A stretch of 64,000 nucleotides of DNA from Chitinophaga agri (GTDB taxonomy: Bacteria; Bacteroidota; Bacteroidia; Chitinophagales; Chitinophagaceae), in assembly GCF_010093065.1 (NCBI RefSeq), contig NZ_CP048113.1, forward strand, positions 3,782,001 through 3,846,000. Direction: 5' to 3'. The notes under the pieces are model-generated. The model made no database searches. It saw only the letters and a program-made list of their open reading frames with translations, and was not told where the DNA came from. This document shows positions 13,192-39,588 of this stretch, one piece after another. Each line of letters opens with the position of its first letter. Positions within the stretch are counted from its first letter, which is position 1. A program made the translations under genes and the position numbers.

Positions 13192-13470
13192 GGGAATATA
13201 TTTTAAGTGATACTACCCCATGATTCACTGGAAAGCTGATTTCCATAATAAGATCTGTTAAGGAAAATATAAAAGCTGCTGTCGTCACAGTATATGCGTA
13301 AAAACGAATTCTCACGCTTGCAGATACATGGATAATAGATTAGAACCGATGCGATAGTACTGTTTAACGCTTTTGAGCAGCTAAGAGCGCAACTGGACTG
13401 CAAACTCAGATTCCCCATCGTAAAACTAATCGCATACTAATTAATACTTATATCTTACCTTAGCAGCGGT

Positions 13471-35762: not shown

Positions 35763-35839
35763 TAATGGAATTGTACGGAAACGGAAAAACCGCACCTCCT
35801 CATTGTCCCGGTAAAGTCCCAGCTTCTATGTAGTTTGGC

Positions 35840-35872
35840 CGTCGCTAGTTCGTCGCTTGTTCGTCGCTTGTT
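35840..35872. repeat. 11-base tandem repeat, three units
   Basis: CGTCGCTAGTT, CGTCGCTTGTT and CGTCGCTTGTT follow one another directly. The same 11-base unit recurs at 59360-59405, 24 kb away, also between genes. The unit length is not a multiple of three, so it is not a coding repeat. Confidence 0.8.
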
Positions 35873-36486: not shown

Positions 36487-36884
36487 TTTTTTATGATTTG
36501 ATATGTGTGTGTTCGTCGTTATTGACAATGTAAAATTGCATCAAAAGCAGACCGTAAAAAATGGATAGTATTCTCCATGTCTTGTACATTTTTCCCCTAC
36601 CGGATCATGGCTGGGATATAACTATCCCTTCAGTAACGGATAAATGAAGTTATTATAAGAGGATTATAATGGAATAAGGGATCGTTCATGCACCTACCTA
36701 TACATATATATAGGAAGAATAGTACACTAAACAGATGATAATCAACTCAATGAAAAAATACGCTGTATTGTAACCCTGCCCGGCGCCGGTTTTTTTTCAT
36801 AAAAACGGAAAATAATTTTGTCCTGCGCAAAAAAAGTGCGCACATGGCTTTCAACTTTGTATCATCAAACAAAAACAAACGGTC
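36487..36884. promoter_or_regulatory. Divergent promoter region of the CMD gene and rsr
   Basis: Contains a perfect dyad GGGATA-taac-TATCCC (36613-36628), and just upstream of rsr two self-complementary TGCGCA hexamers (36824-36829, 36837-36842) separated by AAAAAAG. Right of them, TGGC (36845-36848) and TTTG (36856-36859) are spaced much like a -24/-12 promoter (GG, 10 bases, TG instead of GC). The same bases give CAACTTTG, a one-mismatch fit to the Bacteroidota -7 element. Which of these is used is open. Confidence 0.45.
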
Positions 36885-38417
36885 ATGAGATTCAACATCC
36901 TTAAAAAAGCAGCACAGGTAACCAATCACGGTGGCGCAAAAGCATACGCGCTGACACCGGAACTGGAGCTGTACAGCACTGTGGTGACAGCTTCTCTTAA
37001 CGACCAGTTTTATGAAAAGGCCGACACAAAGCTGGAACGTATCAGAGAGCTGATTGCTAAAAACGATCCTCAATTCGTCGCAAAGCTTGCCGTATACACG
37101 CGTGAAAAGATGTACATGCGTACAGTGCCGCTGGTATTGACAGTAGAACTTGCGAAACTGCATCAAGGCGACGACCTGGTAGGAAAGCTGACAGGTCGTG
37201 TGATACAGCGTGCAGATGAAATCACTGAGTTACTGGCATACTACACCCTGGCAAATGACAGAGGTGAAACAGTGAAGAAGCTTAATCGCCTGAGTAAGCA
37301 AATACAAAAGGGACTGGTCACTGCGTTCAACAAATTTGACGAATATCAGTTTGCAAAATACAACCGTAAAACCGCTATCACCCTGAAAGATGCGCTGTTC
37401 ATTGTGCATCCGAAAGCAAAGGATGAGACACAGCAGGCATTATTCAACAAGATAGTGAACAACGAGTTATCAACACCTTACACATGGGAAACTGAGTTGT
37501 CAGCGGCCGGACAATACACATACAAGGATGAACTGCAAAAGGCAGAAGCATTCAAAGCGGTGTGGACACAACTGATAGAAAGCGGAAAACTGGGTTACAT
37601 GGCAGCATTACGTAACCTGCGCAATATGCTGCAATATGGTGTAACAGCTGCGTATATGCTAAAGGTGGCGCGTATGCTGTCAGACAGAGAAGCGATCATG
37701 AAGGCGAAGCAATTTCCTTTCCGTTATCTGGCTGCATACAGAGAGATAAAAGATTTAAAGCACAGCTGTTTGCCTGATATCAGAAATGCCATTGAGGCAG
37801 CCCTGCAAACCAGTGTTTCCACCCTGAAAGGATTTGATAGTGACACCCGTGTGGTGATCGCATGTGACGTATCAGGTTCCATGCAACAACCGATCTCTCC
37901 AAAGAGCAAAGTGTTGCTGTATGATATCGGTCTGCTATTGGGTATGCTGTTAAAGCACAGATGTAAAAACGTAGTCTCCGGTATGTTTGGTGACACCTGG
38001 AAAATAGTTGATATGTCTTCGGATAAGATCTTAAGTAACGTAGACGAATTCTACCGCAGGGAAGGGGAAGTGGGTTACGCCACCAACGGATTCCTGGTAC
38101 TGGAAGATCTGATCAAAAGAAAACAGGTTGCTGATAAGATCATGCTGTTCACTGACGGGCAGTTGTGGGATAGTACGACCAACAACAATGCCGCAGCGAA
38201 CGCTATATCAGCAAAATGGACATGGTATAAGCAGCATGTAGCGCCTGATGCGAAGCTGTATCTGTTCAATCTGGCGGGTTACAATACGGTACCGCTGGAC
38301 GTACGTCAGGACGATGTTTACCTCATTGCGGGATGGAGTGATAAGATCTTCGGAATACTGGATGCGATTGAAAGAGGAAGCGACGCCGTTACTGAGATAG
38401 CCGGCCTTTCTTTCTAA
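36885..38417 (+). CDS. rsr: Ro60/Rsr-like TROVE-vWA protein
   Basis: 510 residues. The first two thirds are a TROVE domain of stacked helical repeats (FVAKLAVYTREKMYMRTVPLVLTVELAKLH, LGYMAALRNLRNML, FPFRYLAAYREI), the ring that binds Y RNAs and misfolded RNAs in the animal autoantigen Ro60 and bacterial Rsr. The last third is a vWA domain with MIDAS DVSGS at residues 328-332 and MLFTDGQLWD. The position next to four Y-RNA-like genes agrees. Bacterial Rsr helps RNA maturation and decay, often with 3' exonucleases such as PNPase. No RtcA/RtcB genes are in the window. Confidence 0.93.
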   Translation: MRFNILKKAAQVTNHGGAKAYALTPELELYSTVVTASLNDQFYEKADTKLERIRELIAKNDPQFVAKLAVYTREKMYMRTVPLVLTVELAKLHQGDDLVGKLTGRVIQRADEITELLAYYTLANDRGETVKKLNRLSKQIQKGLVTAFNKFDEYQFAKYNRKTAITLKDALFIVHPKAKDETQQALFNKIVNNELSTPYTWETELSAAGQYTYKDELQKAEAFKAVWTQLIESGKLGYMAALRNLRNMLQYGVTAAYMLKVARMLSDREAIMKAKQFPFRYLAAYREIKDLKHSCLPDIRNAIEAALQTSVSTLKGFDSDTRVVIACDVSGSMQQPISPKSKVLLYDIGLLLGMLLKHRCKNVVSGMFGDTWKIVDMSSDKILSNVDEFYRREGEVGYATNGFLVLEDLIKRKQVADKIMLFTDGQLWDSTTNNNAAANAISAKWTWYKQHVAPDAKLYLFNLAGYNTVPLDVRQDDVYLIAGWSDKIFGILDAIERGSDAVTEIAGLSF

Positions 38418-38445
38418 GGATTCATTTTTTGTTCACCTCATTTTT

Positions 38446-38474
38446 ACATCCCTCCAAAAGGGAGGGATGTTTTT
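38446..38474 (+). terminator. Terminator-like hairpin between rsr and the Y RNA array
   Basis: Perfect 10-base stem ACATCCCTCC (38446-38455) with GGAGGGATGT (38461-38470) around AAAAG, followed by TTTT. It separates the rsr mRNA from the RNA genes, which may therefore be transcribed by read-through or by a promoter downstream of it. Confidence 0.8.
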
Positions 38475-38483
38475 AAAATATTG

Positions 38484-38629
38484 CAGGACCAAGGTGTCGT
38501 TGATAAGTCTTACTTCGTAGGGAATACGAGTGTGCGGGTGCAATTCCCGCTCCGCTGCCGGCGGATGGCGTAATCAGTAGCGCGCGTATATAGAAAGGGC
38601 TTATTATTTATTACCCGGCAACGGTCCTG
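38484..38629 (+). ncRNA. Y RNA-like gene 1, with permuted tRNA-like module
   Basis: The ends pair (CAGGACC 38484-38490 with GGTCCTG 38623-38629), then GTTG with CAAC, then ATAAG with CTTAT, as in a Y RNA stem. The 5' arm carries the conserved GTGTCGTTG...TTACTTCG (38494-38517). The centre holds a tRNA-like module in the order T-arm GCGGG-TGCAATT-CCCGC (38534-38550), acceptor hairpin TCCGC-tgccg-GCGGA (38551-38565), then a D-arm TGGCGTAATCAGTAGCGC. The T-loop has G at the place of T55, unlike units 3 and 4. It probably binds the Rsr protein encoded just upstream. Confidence 0.85.
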
Positions 38630-38638
38630 TATGCATAA

Positions 38639-38718
38639 CAGCTACAAGTGTCGTAGAAAGGTGTTACTTCTCTGTCAGGAAAACAAGCACACACTTTTCG
38701 CTTATTACCTAAGGGCTG
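38639..38718 (+). ncRNA. Y RNA-like gene 2, minimal form
   Basis: About 80 bases, lying 9 bases after unit 1. The ends pair through CAGCT / GGCTG. The 5' arm has the same conserved GTGTCGTAG...TTACTTCT (38648-38671) and the 3' arm the conserved ATTACC (38704-38709). AAAG pairs with CTTT inside. No T-arm or D-arm is present; the centre is an A-rich loop. Its size and layout recall the short animal Y RNAs. Confidence 0.7.
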
Positions 38719-38737
38719 ATTATGTCTGTACTTTTAT

Positions 38738-38894
38738 AAAAAACGAGTGTCGTAGGGAAGTAATACTTCGACTCCAAATCGACAAATAATCTGCTACGGG
38801 GGTTCGAGTCCCTCTCCGCTGAAAGGCGGATGGTCGAGGTGGTTAGGCGCAGATGGAAAACAACATTATTTTCCGCCTGTTACCTCGTTTTTTT
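38738..38894 (+). ncRNA. Y RNA-like gene 3, with permuted tRNA-like module
   Basis: A 10-base closing stem AAAAAACGAG (38738-38747) with CTCGTTTTTT (38884-38893) ends in a T-run. The 5' arm has GTGTCGTAG...TACTTCG (38747-38770), the 3' arm GTTACC. Inner stem GGAAGTAAT pairs with ATTATTTTCC. The tRNA-like module is T-arm GGGGG-TTCGAGT-CCCTC (38798-38814, canonical T-loop), acceptor hairpin TCCGC-tgaaag-GCGGA (38815-38830) and D-arm TGGTCGAGGTGGTTAGGCGC. The closing stem plus T-run also makes an intrinsic terminator. Confidence 0.88.
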
Positions 38895-38904
38895 ATTTTC
38901 TTAA

Positions 38905-39058
38905 GGCAGGTGTCGTAGGAAAGCGTTACTTCGCAGGATCTGAAGGCTAGGGGTTCGAATCCTCTCCTGTTTCAACCATGTTGGACAGGTAGCTCAACCT
39001 GGATAGAGCATCAGGCAAAACAGTCGCTTCCGTATTGTTACCCTGCCTGCATTTTTTT
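38905..39058 (+). ncRNA. Y RNA-like gene 4, with permuted tRNA-like module
   Basis: Closing stem GGCAGG (38905-38910) with CCTGCC (39042-39047), followed by a run of seven T. Conserved 5' arm GTGTCGTAGGAAAGCGTTACTTCG (38910-38933, in two parts of 12), 3' arm GTTACC, inner stem GGAAAGCG with CGCTTCC. The module has T-arm AGGGG-TTCGAAT-CCTCT, a longer acceptor hairpin starting CCTGT and closing ACAGG with a CAAC-cat-GTTG tip, and an almost perfect D-arm TAGCTCAACCTGGATAGAGCA with the GG pair. It is the most tRNA-like of the four. Confidence 0.9.
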
Positions 39059-39134: not shown

Positions 39135-39588
39135 TCATTTATGTTATCCACATTTTTCACTACGCACGATGAATGCGTAATGCTCCTGTATCTTTGTTAT
39201 GTAAACAAGACGGTCAAACACACGAAACACCTGTCCTATTGAATATAAACCCGCCGGGAAGGAGATGAACCCCTCTTTCAGGCAATTAAAAATCAATCTT
39301 GTAATGCATAAAACTTTGGTTATGTAAGTACTGTTTTTCTCAAAGAACCATGATACCATCTTATTTAGCAATACGCTTTTGACTATGTAATACGAATCCC
39401 ATGGCGCCTGCAGCTGGCATACGCAGACAGGCGCCAACTTTCAAACGTTTTTATCCGGATACTGCGTAAGACGCAGCATTCATATCACTTACGAAAAGCG
39501 ATCGTCGTAACACGGGCTTTTGTGTGCATAGGTGAGACGACAACTATGCAAATAATATAGCCACATCTTTTAACTTTTTTAATACACT
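39135..39588. other. 454-base region with no clear gene
   Basis: Between the array terminator and the next hypothetical gene. A minus-strand frame of 97 codons (39144-39437) has poor protein character and is not called. There are no further copies of the GTGTCGT arm. The promoter of the next gene presumably lies at its right end. Confidence 0.45.

Follow-up and report, generated by a model that had tools for sequence, protein, structure and literature searches.

Among known systems, those nearest to the one treated here include the Ro60-Y RNA systems of Salmonella and Deinococcus. The Salmonella rsr-yrlBA-rtcBA operon is activated by conditions that yield tRNA fragments, DNA damage included (PMC7790460), and that source describes bacterial Ro60/Y RNA functions as having been studied only in Deinococcus until then. 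YrlA is tRNA-like and a substrate of DusA and TruB (PMC8394870), and in Deinococcus Rsr binds the lower stem of a Y RNA that tethers PNPase (PMC4726728, PMC8058203). On the regulatory side, WYL domains are predicted ligand-binding regulators, and RtcR carries a divergent CARF domain (PMC4012209). Here we analysed a window of 64,000 nucleotides (nt), positions 3,782,001-3,846,000 of the Chitinophaga agri genome (7,969,925 bases, a single contig), in which rsr, the gene for a Ro60-related protein, is followed by an array of four RNA units, U1 to U4. With fairly high confidence, we read it as a Ro60 (Rsr) locus that holds four Y RNA genes and is most likely expressed as a single unit under stress. 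More broadly, the locus appears to belong to an RNA-repair regulon, probably WYL-controlled, in which several Y RNAs would serve Rsr.

The locus resembles the Salmonella YrlA/YrlB-Rsr system in having Y RNA genes beside rsr, a stem formed by the RNA ends, a tRNA-like domain (that of YrlA there) and a tie to rtcB (PMC7790460 and PMC8394870). Unlike that system, it has four units rather than two, all of them under the Rfam cutoff for YrlA; rtcB is unlinked and tied to rsr by a common operator-like repeat instead of an operon; and the candidate regulator is a WYL protein rather than the sigma-54 activator RtcR. With RYPER (Rsr-Y RNA-PNPase) of Deinococcus radiodurans it has in common Rsr plus Y RNA, lower-stem binding being a Deinococcus feature (PMC4726728, PMC8058203). 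Here, by contrast, the Y RNAs form an array of four. Vertebrate Y RNAs are built from an end stem, an internal loop or bulge and an upper stem, and it is this general plan alone that links our units to the vertebrate Y RNAs with Ro60; sequence homology is not claimed. A title-level literature search returned nothing on Bacteroidota Y RNA arrays or on the repeat (TGCGCA), the main Y RNA papers being outside its reach, so unpublished status is not implied. A conserved array of non-identical Y RNAs, with a repeat common to rtcB and an adjoining WYL gene, would point to a candidate regulator and a stress signal in culturable environmental bacteria, and the locus offers a concrete handle on the function of the little-understood Y RNAs.

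The rsr gene and its array

The gene and the units, in window coordinates, are:

36885..38417, + strand: rsr, Ro60-related protein of 510 amino acids, TROVE plus vWA-like
38447..38469, + strand: hairpin after the rsr stop, then TTTTT (fold -17.5 kcal/mol)
38484..38629, + strand: Y RNA unit U1, with outer (38484-38490/38623-38629) and inner (38503-38509/38598-38604) stems; its tRNA-like module is made up of a T-arm (38534-38550), an acceptor-like hairpin (38551-38565) and a D-arm (38568-38583)
38639..38718, + strand: Y RNA unit U2, without module; outer stem 38639-38643/38714-38718 (internal loop), inner stem 38656-38664/38691-38699
38740..38891, + strand: Y RNA unit U3, with outer (38740-38747/38884-38891) and inner (38756-38764/38865-38874) stems; its tRNA-like module is made up of a T-arm (38798-38814), an acceptor-like hairpin (38815-38830) and a D-arm (38832-38848)
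38904..39048, + strand: Y RNA unit U4, with outer (38904-38910/39042-39048) and inner (38918-38925/39025-39031) stems; its tRNA-like module is made up of a T-arm (38949-38965), an acceptor-like hairpin (38966-38989) and a D-arm (38992-39009)

The initial annotation of this stretch had proposed a TROVE protein followed within 70 bases by four Y RNA-like units, and its outline holds. Rsr matches the TROVE family (PF05731) at 106.6 bits (E 2.3e-30, cutoff 23) and the Ro60 vWA domain PF25045 at 23.5 bits (cutoff 27.7), with the motifs DVSGSM at residue 328 and LFTDGQ at 421. Its gene is present in one copy in the genome, and two solved relatives, 9l5y and 9kop (E 1.3e-27), are both named just TROVE domain-containing protein. 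The nearest fetched rsr loci come from Chitinophaga, Rsr protein identity being 76% to C. pinensis YS-16, whose locus (L002) contains all four unit types and one unit more. From the rsr stop to the first outer stem of U1 we measured 66 bases, and successive units are separated by spacers of 9, 21 and 12 nt.

Structurally, the units follow one plan: an outer stem, a 5' GUGUCGU strand opposite a 3' UUAC strand (internal loop), an inner stem and then mostly UUACUUCG. The interior of U1, U3 and U4 is a permuted tRNA-like module consisting of a T-arm, an acceptor-like hairpin closed by a loop, and a D-arm, without an anticodon loop, which agrees with the three tRNA-like modules originally annotated; the interior of U2 measures 32 nt only. 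U-runs stand at the outer-stem end in U3 and begin 3 nt past the outer stem in U4. The near-identical arm of the four units starts at 38494, 38648, 38747 and 38910 (the four arms span 38494 to 38932), and its exact pattern, GTGTCGTWG-N8-TACTTC, occurs at these four places only in the whole genome. With up to two mismatches allowed, 37 places match, the four among them (18 on the forward strand and 19 on the reverse), and a reversed control pattern reaches 48, so the looser matches are at chance level.

Evidence for the fold and the family

That each unit is closed by its own end-pairing, as annotated, is borne out by a four-by-four pairing test, in which every 5' half pairs best with its own body (-17.9, -20.1, -22.3 and -24.5) and the best off-diagonal combination reaches -14.7. 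We extended this to relatives through 80 related rsr loci, the best 80 of 239 found with the window Rsr and thus biased toward nearer relatives. After five T-arms had been removed from 249 arm matches, the remaining 244, located behind rsr in the window and in 77 of the 80 fetched loci (78 loci in all), gave a mean of -18.4 with their own 3' partner versus -9.5 for swapped halves (standard deviation of the means 0.17, 100 swaps), and -12 was reached by 234 of the 244 own pairs versus 21.7% of swapped pairs. Single-sequence folds gave z-scores that were modest or nil (U1 -2.4; U2 +0.6, no stabler than shuffles; U3 -2.1; U4 -0.45), and comparative evidence was therefore used instead of single folds.

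Compensatory changes, for which the initial annotation proposed to check the relatives' stems, are present in alignments of hand-picked rows. In the orthologue groups of U4 (A1, 9 rows), U1 (A2, 10 rows) and U3 (A3, 8 rows), 96.1%, 97.6% and 88.6% of cells are paired, and 11 of 35, 10 of 29 and 13 of 37 pairs, respectively, are changed on both sides; the inner stem of A3 pairs in just 65%, its rows probably mixing two subgroups. A broader alignment (A6) of 22 units from other genomes, picked from 89 candidates with the window excluded, has 84.8% of cells paired and 27 of 34 pairs changed on both sides, with weaker anticodon-side (55%), inner (70%) and D-stems (78% of cells) that partly reflect alignment gaps. 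Paired cells and covariation score lie above all 500 shuffles in each of the four alignments, the shuffles leaving relatedness among rows in place; the count of further pair types was matched by 453 of 500 shuffles in A3 and by 26 of 500 in A1 (weak). Slid structures, as a control, were 41-60% paired. The pair counts omit the likewise hand-picked U2 group (A4) because MAFFT misaligns the inner stem of the U2 relatives.

A covariance model (R1) built from A6, with zero window sequence, finds U4 (E 1.2e-19), U1 (E 1.4e-14) and U3 (E 9.5e-14) in the window, the one remaining match up to E 10 lying inside a real tRNA (E 0.61). Searching with Y RNA/YrlA models, as initially suggested, thus succeeded in part: R1 finds U1, U3, U4 and, weakly, U2, whereas all four stay under the Rfam YrlA cutoff. 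At gathering thresholds Rfam places nothing over the units, and YrlA has 0 matches in 15 related loci. At relaxed thresholds U4 has YrlA as its top family (31.5 bits, E 1.5e-4), and the YrlA model gives 24.7 bits on U1 (module part only) and 21.7 bits on U3. ARAGORN predicts no tRNA, and hence no cloverleaf with anticodon, at the units, its sole tRNA in the window being a tRNA-Glu at 13470; a sub-cutoff tRNA score of 20.2 bits falls at the array. The units adjoin a Ro60 orthologue and pair their ends in a long stem, as seen for all four in the swap test and for the U1, U3 and U4 groups in the pair counts. A species reportedly has one or more Y RNAs that bear a tRNA-like domain (attributed to Chen et al. 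2014), and here U1, U3 and U4 do. Judged by sequence, the four units are bacterial Y RNAs in the broad sense, under the Rfam YrlA cutoff.

Unit numbers, orthology and co-occurrence in relatives

R1 was run on the 80 loci in two halves at E 0.01 or better, with unit counts referring to Bacteroidota rsr loci only (below, L-numbers are relatives' loci and G-numbers genomes). Removing 15 partial and 2 upstream full-length matches from 393 left 376 full-length matches behind rsr, all on the rsr strand and in 78 of the 80 loci; many of the weaker ones are units without a module, a type outside the model's design, and the contigs of the two loci without units stop 213 and 341 nt past rsr. The median is 4 units per locus, with at least four in 54 of 80 and a maximum of 11 (Chryseobacterium L079); by group, the medians are 7 for Chryseobacterium (21 loci), 4 for Flavobacterium (18 loci) and 4 for the Chitinophaga type (17 loci). 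Among these relatives, the initial description of four units as a clearly expanded system does not hold. The counts suggest that multi-Y RNA loci are common among those sampled; in the window and the 15 loci searched, such units escape detection at the Rfam YrlA cutoff.

Evolutionarily, the interiors of U1-U4 match, in order, units 1-4 of L002, units 1, 2, 3 and 5 of L003 and units 2, 3, 4 and 6 of L004 at 56-78% identity, and the best interior identity within the window array is 22-53% (both among the matches listed). Since these orthologues are collinear, the four types predate the four genomes; one-to-one correspondence fades in L005-L010.

Among 294 genomes of the family, TROVE was found in 21, the exact arm pattern in 21 and both in 16; the pattern is thus present in 16 of 21 genomes with TROVE versus 5 of 273 without (Fisher p 4e-18), and the concern that the arm might be a general repeat apart from rsr is not borne out. 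G085, which has the arm and no TROVE gene found (one of the five such genomes, and the one inspected), has an AAA ATPase and RtcB in the neighbourhood of its two closed units; in G089, closed units flank RtcB on a different contig than rsr, and in G114 they occur at two places far from its rsr:

L095 3908-4160; L093 2016-2310 and 3958; L090 and L091: Y RNA-like units at sites not adjoining rsr (G085, G089, G114)

By eye, a stretch like a tRNA split by a long insert lies in the rsr-array gap of L003 (5560-5700) and between the first two units of L004 (5790-6020). tRNA genes are interspersed with Y RNA units, or stand in the same locus, in L039 (5637-6661), L036 and L052.

An operator-like repeat shared with rtcB and also found beside a WYL regulator gene

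Three features bear on the proposed regulon:

36824..36842: inverted repeat TGCGCA-AAAAAAG-TGCGCA, operator-like, 42 nt ahead of the rsr start codon
36856-36859: TTTG (-7-like) element, 13 nt past the repeat
L140 2241-2320 (own genome 4671740-4671819) and L157 1662-1737: permuted tRNA-like RNA without Y arms, downstream of a copy of the repeat, between WYL regulator and SPFH gene

Of 81 loci, 78 have TGCGCA-N7-TGCGCA with at most two mismatches in the last 250 nt ahead of rsr (no mismatch in 32, one in 35 and two in 11), the misses being L025 and L036 (three mismatches each) and L039; in the controls it appears in 9 of 387 real windows 1-3 kb upstream and in 0.2% of mononucleotide shuffles. 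TTTG follows 13-14 nt past the repeat in 65 of the 78 loci, a placement that we take to fit the Bacteroidota -7 element. The exact repeat has three sites in the C. agri genome, and a control pattern 0. The second site is 41 nt before rtcB (PF01139, E 1.7e-80), and the third separates a divergent WYL-WCX regulator gene (39 nt) from a tRNA-like RNA that has an SPFH gene behind it. This RNA ranked fourth genome-wide in the independent R1 search (E 2.9e-4; 150 of 1,629 first-look candidates scored). A similar tRNA-like RNA stands at the same place in G006 (43.7 bits), and a weak match (20.9 bits) lies by one repeat site in G114. In G055 and G125 the repeat stands between rsr and a divergent gene that shows, at its start, a likeness to the WYL protein. 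An extra copy lies within 90 nt past the rsr stop, ahead of the array, in 17 of 18 Flavobacterium loci and in L040.

Variety of the modules

The modules are not uniform. The elbow of U1 (38536-38583) has the T-loop TGCAATT, with G at the U55 position, and no GG in the D-loop; this altered elbow is common to the window, L002, L003 and L004, and both changes also occur together in L078. The D-loop GG is missing in all 6 units with G at T-loop 55, four of which share one origin, versus 5 of 77 others, a count that omits 19 of 102 units (no D-arm found) and includes some doubtful D-arm calls (L071) and a wrong call, window U3, among the five. In the ten aligned rows, the U2 relatives lack a module.

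A second class of module, GGGGAGGAAU...T-arm...GCCCC, is listed for 31 units, from sources that include Spirosoma, Flavobacterium and Chryseobacterium. The bases that open this module can form pairs with the segment ahead of CCCC, at a mean of 3.2 pairs versus 2.5 in swaps (0 of 1000 swaps as high; 32 rows after removal of 8 duplicates from 40; several rows have just 2 pairs), a pairing that would likely form a pseudoknot. Of the 21 Chryseobacterium loci, 7 include one unit with a module of ~180 nt that opens on the conserved 23S rRNA H69-H71 stretch (33 nt at 97% identity to 23S in L079; an exact 25-mer in L065 and L079); the rest of this module is conserved, with no further long match to the 23S pieces compared.

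L014 1874-2009, L015, L016, L017, L018, L022 5730-5864 and others: second-class units
L079 8524-8747, L054, L059, L065, L068, L069, L077: 23S-module units

Two origins of the modules were considered and rejected. The idea of copies of single host tRNAs is not supported, as D and T halves match different tRNAs best (U4: D Arg, T Met; the comparison set held 25 distinct tRNAs, read from 30 of 80 tRNA matches). A search for other known RNAs, comparing 380 units with this genome's own rRNA operon, rnpB and tmRNA, gave, among the matches listed, mostly short ones at the level of the minus-strand control and generic T-arms, the 23S stretch in Chryseobacterium units being the exception.

Chryseobacterium loci also have tRNA-like module matches ~2.4-3.2 kb upstream of rsr, two of them full-length:

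L034 1422, L038 1096, L044 1117, L054 1407, L056 1162, L057 799, L059 998, L065 770, L067 1482, L068 965: upstream module matches

Interpretation and alternative explanations

Functionally, we posit that upon RNA damage a WYL-domain regulator would act through the TGCGCA repeat, and that the array would be read through from rsr and then cut or terminated unit by unit; read-through is proposed because the three spacers leave little promoter room. A search for a promoter motif ahead of every unit found none in common. Each Y RNA may bind Rsr via its lower stem and gate the ring, with U1, U3 and U4 holding out a tRNA-elbow mimic that could recruit or compete for tRNA-acting enzymes or PNPase and U2 presumably holding out nothing, while RtcB would reseal cut RNA within the same response.

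Several observations weigh against this reading. The hairpin at 38447, which has a counterpart in 8 of the 9 loci L002-L010 (the exception is L003), could terminate transcription ahead of the array, and the window has no repeat copy between rsr and the array. U2 is the weakest unit, absent from the R1 listing for the window and scoring 32.3 bits (E 0.003) in the genome-wide scan, and the top YrlA (RF02553) score of 31.5 falls short of the gathering cutoff of 69 bits. The exact arm pattern is missing from 5 of the 21 TROVE genomes. The exact repeat is absent in 3 of 8 genomes searched (G058 and G288 with TROVE, G085 without), both exact sites of G114 are away from its rsr, and several sites in G006, G055, G114 and G089 stand beside no recognised RNA-repair gene, most neighbours being outside the Pfam run; in G006, four of six exact sites were inspected, and one further site is just before its rsr by coordinates. 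Finally, rtcB is not in one operon with rsr: rsr (3.82 Mb) and the repeat-bearing rtcB (6.69 Mb) are 2.87 Mb apart, and a second RtcB gene at 3.96 Mb lacks the exact repeat.

A bolder, tentative proposal, which we regard as possible and somewhat short of probable, is that the Rsr of Bacteroidota is a platform for interchangeable RNA mimics: one locus would make as many as 11 Y RNAs that share their Rsr handle and differ in their modules, each module drawing in or holding off the enzymes of its RNA class, under one WYL operator shared with RtcB. The modules displayed would be permuted tRNA elbows (three in the window, one of them changed), the T-arm module with its likely pseudoknot, none, and, in some Chryseobacterium, the 23S H69-H71 stretch.

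Slightly less credible, and on balance unlikely, is the view that these are real Y RNAs whose number reflects dosage or drift, all doing the same job for Rsr, so that their sequence differences are meaningless. The units do have arm and gate stems in common, and three of the four also the tRNA-like fold; the close relatives L002-L010 have 4 to 7 units, and, as D and T halves match different host tRNAs, no module looks copied from one tRNA. However, collinear orthologues at 56-78% identity versus at most 53% within the array indicate that there is no homogenisation, the U2 relatives are module-free in all ten rows, and the altered U1 elbow is kept in the window and three relatives.

More doubtful still is the idea that the tRNA-like modules are decoys for enzymes that cut or modify tRNA (phage or toxin tRNases, for example), with Rsr merely stabilising them. 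It would suit the link through the operator-like repeat to RtcB, an RNA ligase, and the strong variation of unit numbers across genera, yet the modules have no anticodon arm, which is the usual cut site of anticodon nucleases. For Salmonella, PMC7790460 raises a competitive-inhibitor role for YrlA, but it also reports no YrlA fragments detected and takes YrlA as a non-substrate.

We consider it improbable that the row instead forms a single, long and structured 3' tail on the rsr message, with a role in regulating rsr. The short spacers without a common promoter motif and the shared strand would be expected of such a tail, whereas a closing stem for each unit, the U-runs after U3 and U4, the Flavobacterium operator copies between rsr and array, and the closed units beside rtcB in G089, on a different contig than rsr, point to separate RNAs. 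That the units are tRNA genes in decay, or repeats that do not function as RNA, is already contradicted and has next to no likelihood: adjacent tRNA genes can mimic the permuted module at their junction (an R1 match at 6892586 lies between tRNA matches) and the array has its sub-cutoff tRNA score, but ARAGORN finds no tRNA there, the covarying outer and inner stems are not part of the module, and the arms go with rsr.

Other observations

Phage-borne arrays were looked for in 7 viral loci, with a single chance-like arm match; phage records encoding an Rsr relative number 100, with an organism name that starts with Bacteroides in 20. Near the locus, a short repeat like TCGTCGCTNGT and a GTCGT...ACGAC inverted repeat were noted by eye at 35838-35872 and 39500-39550 of the window.

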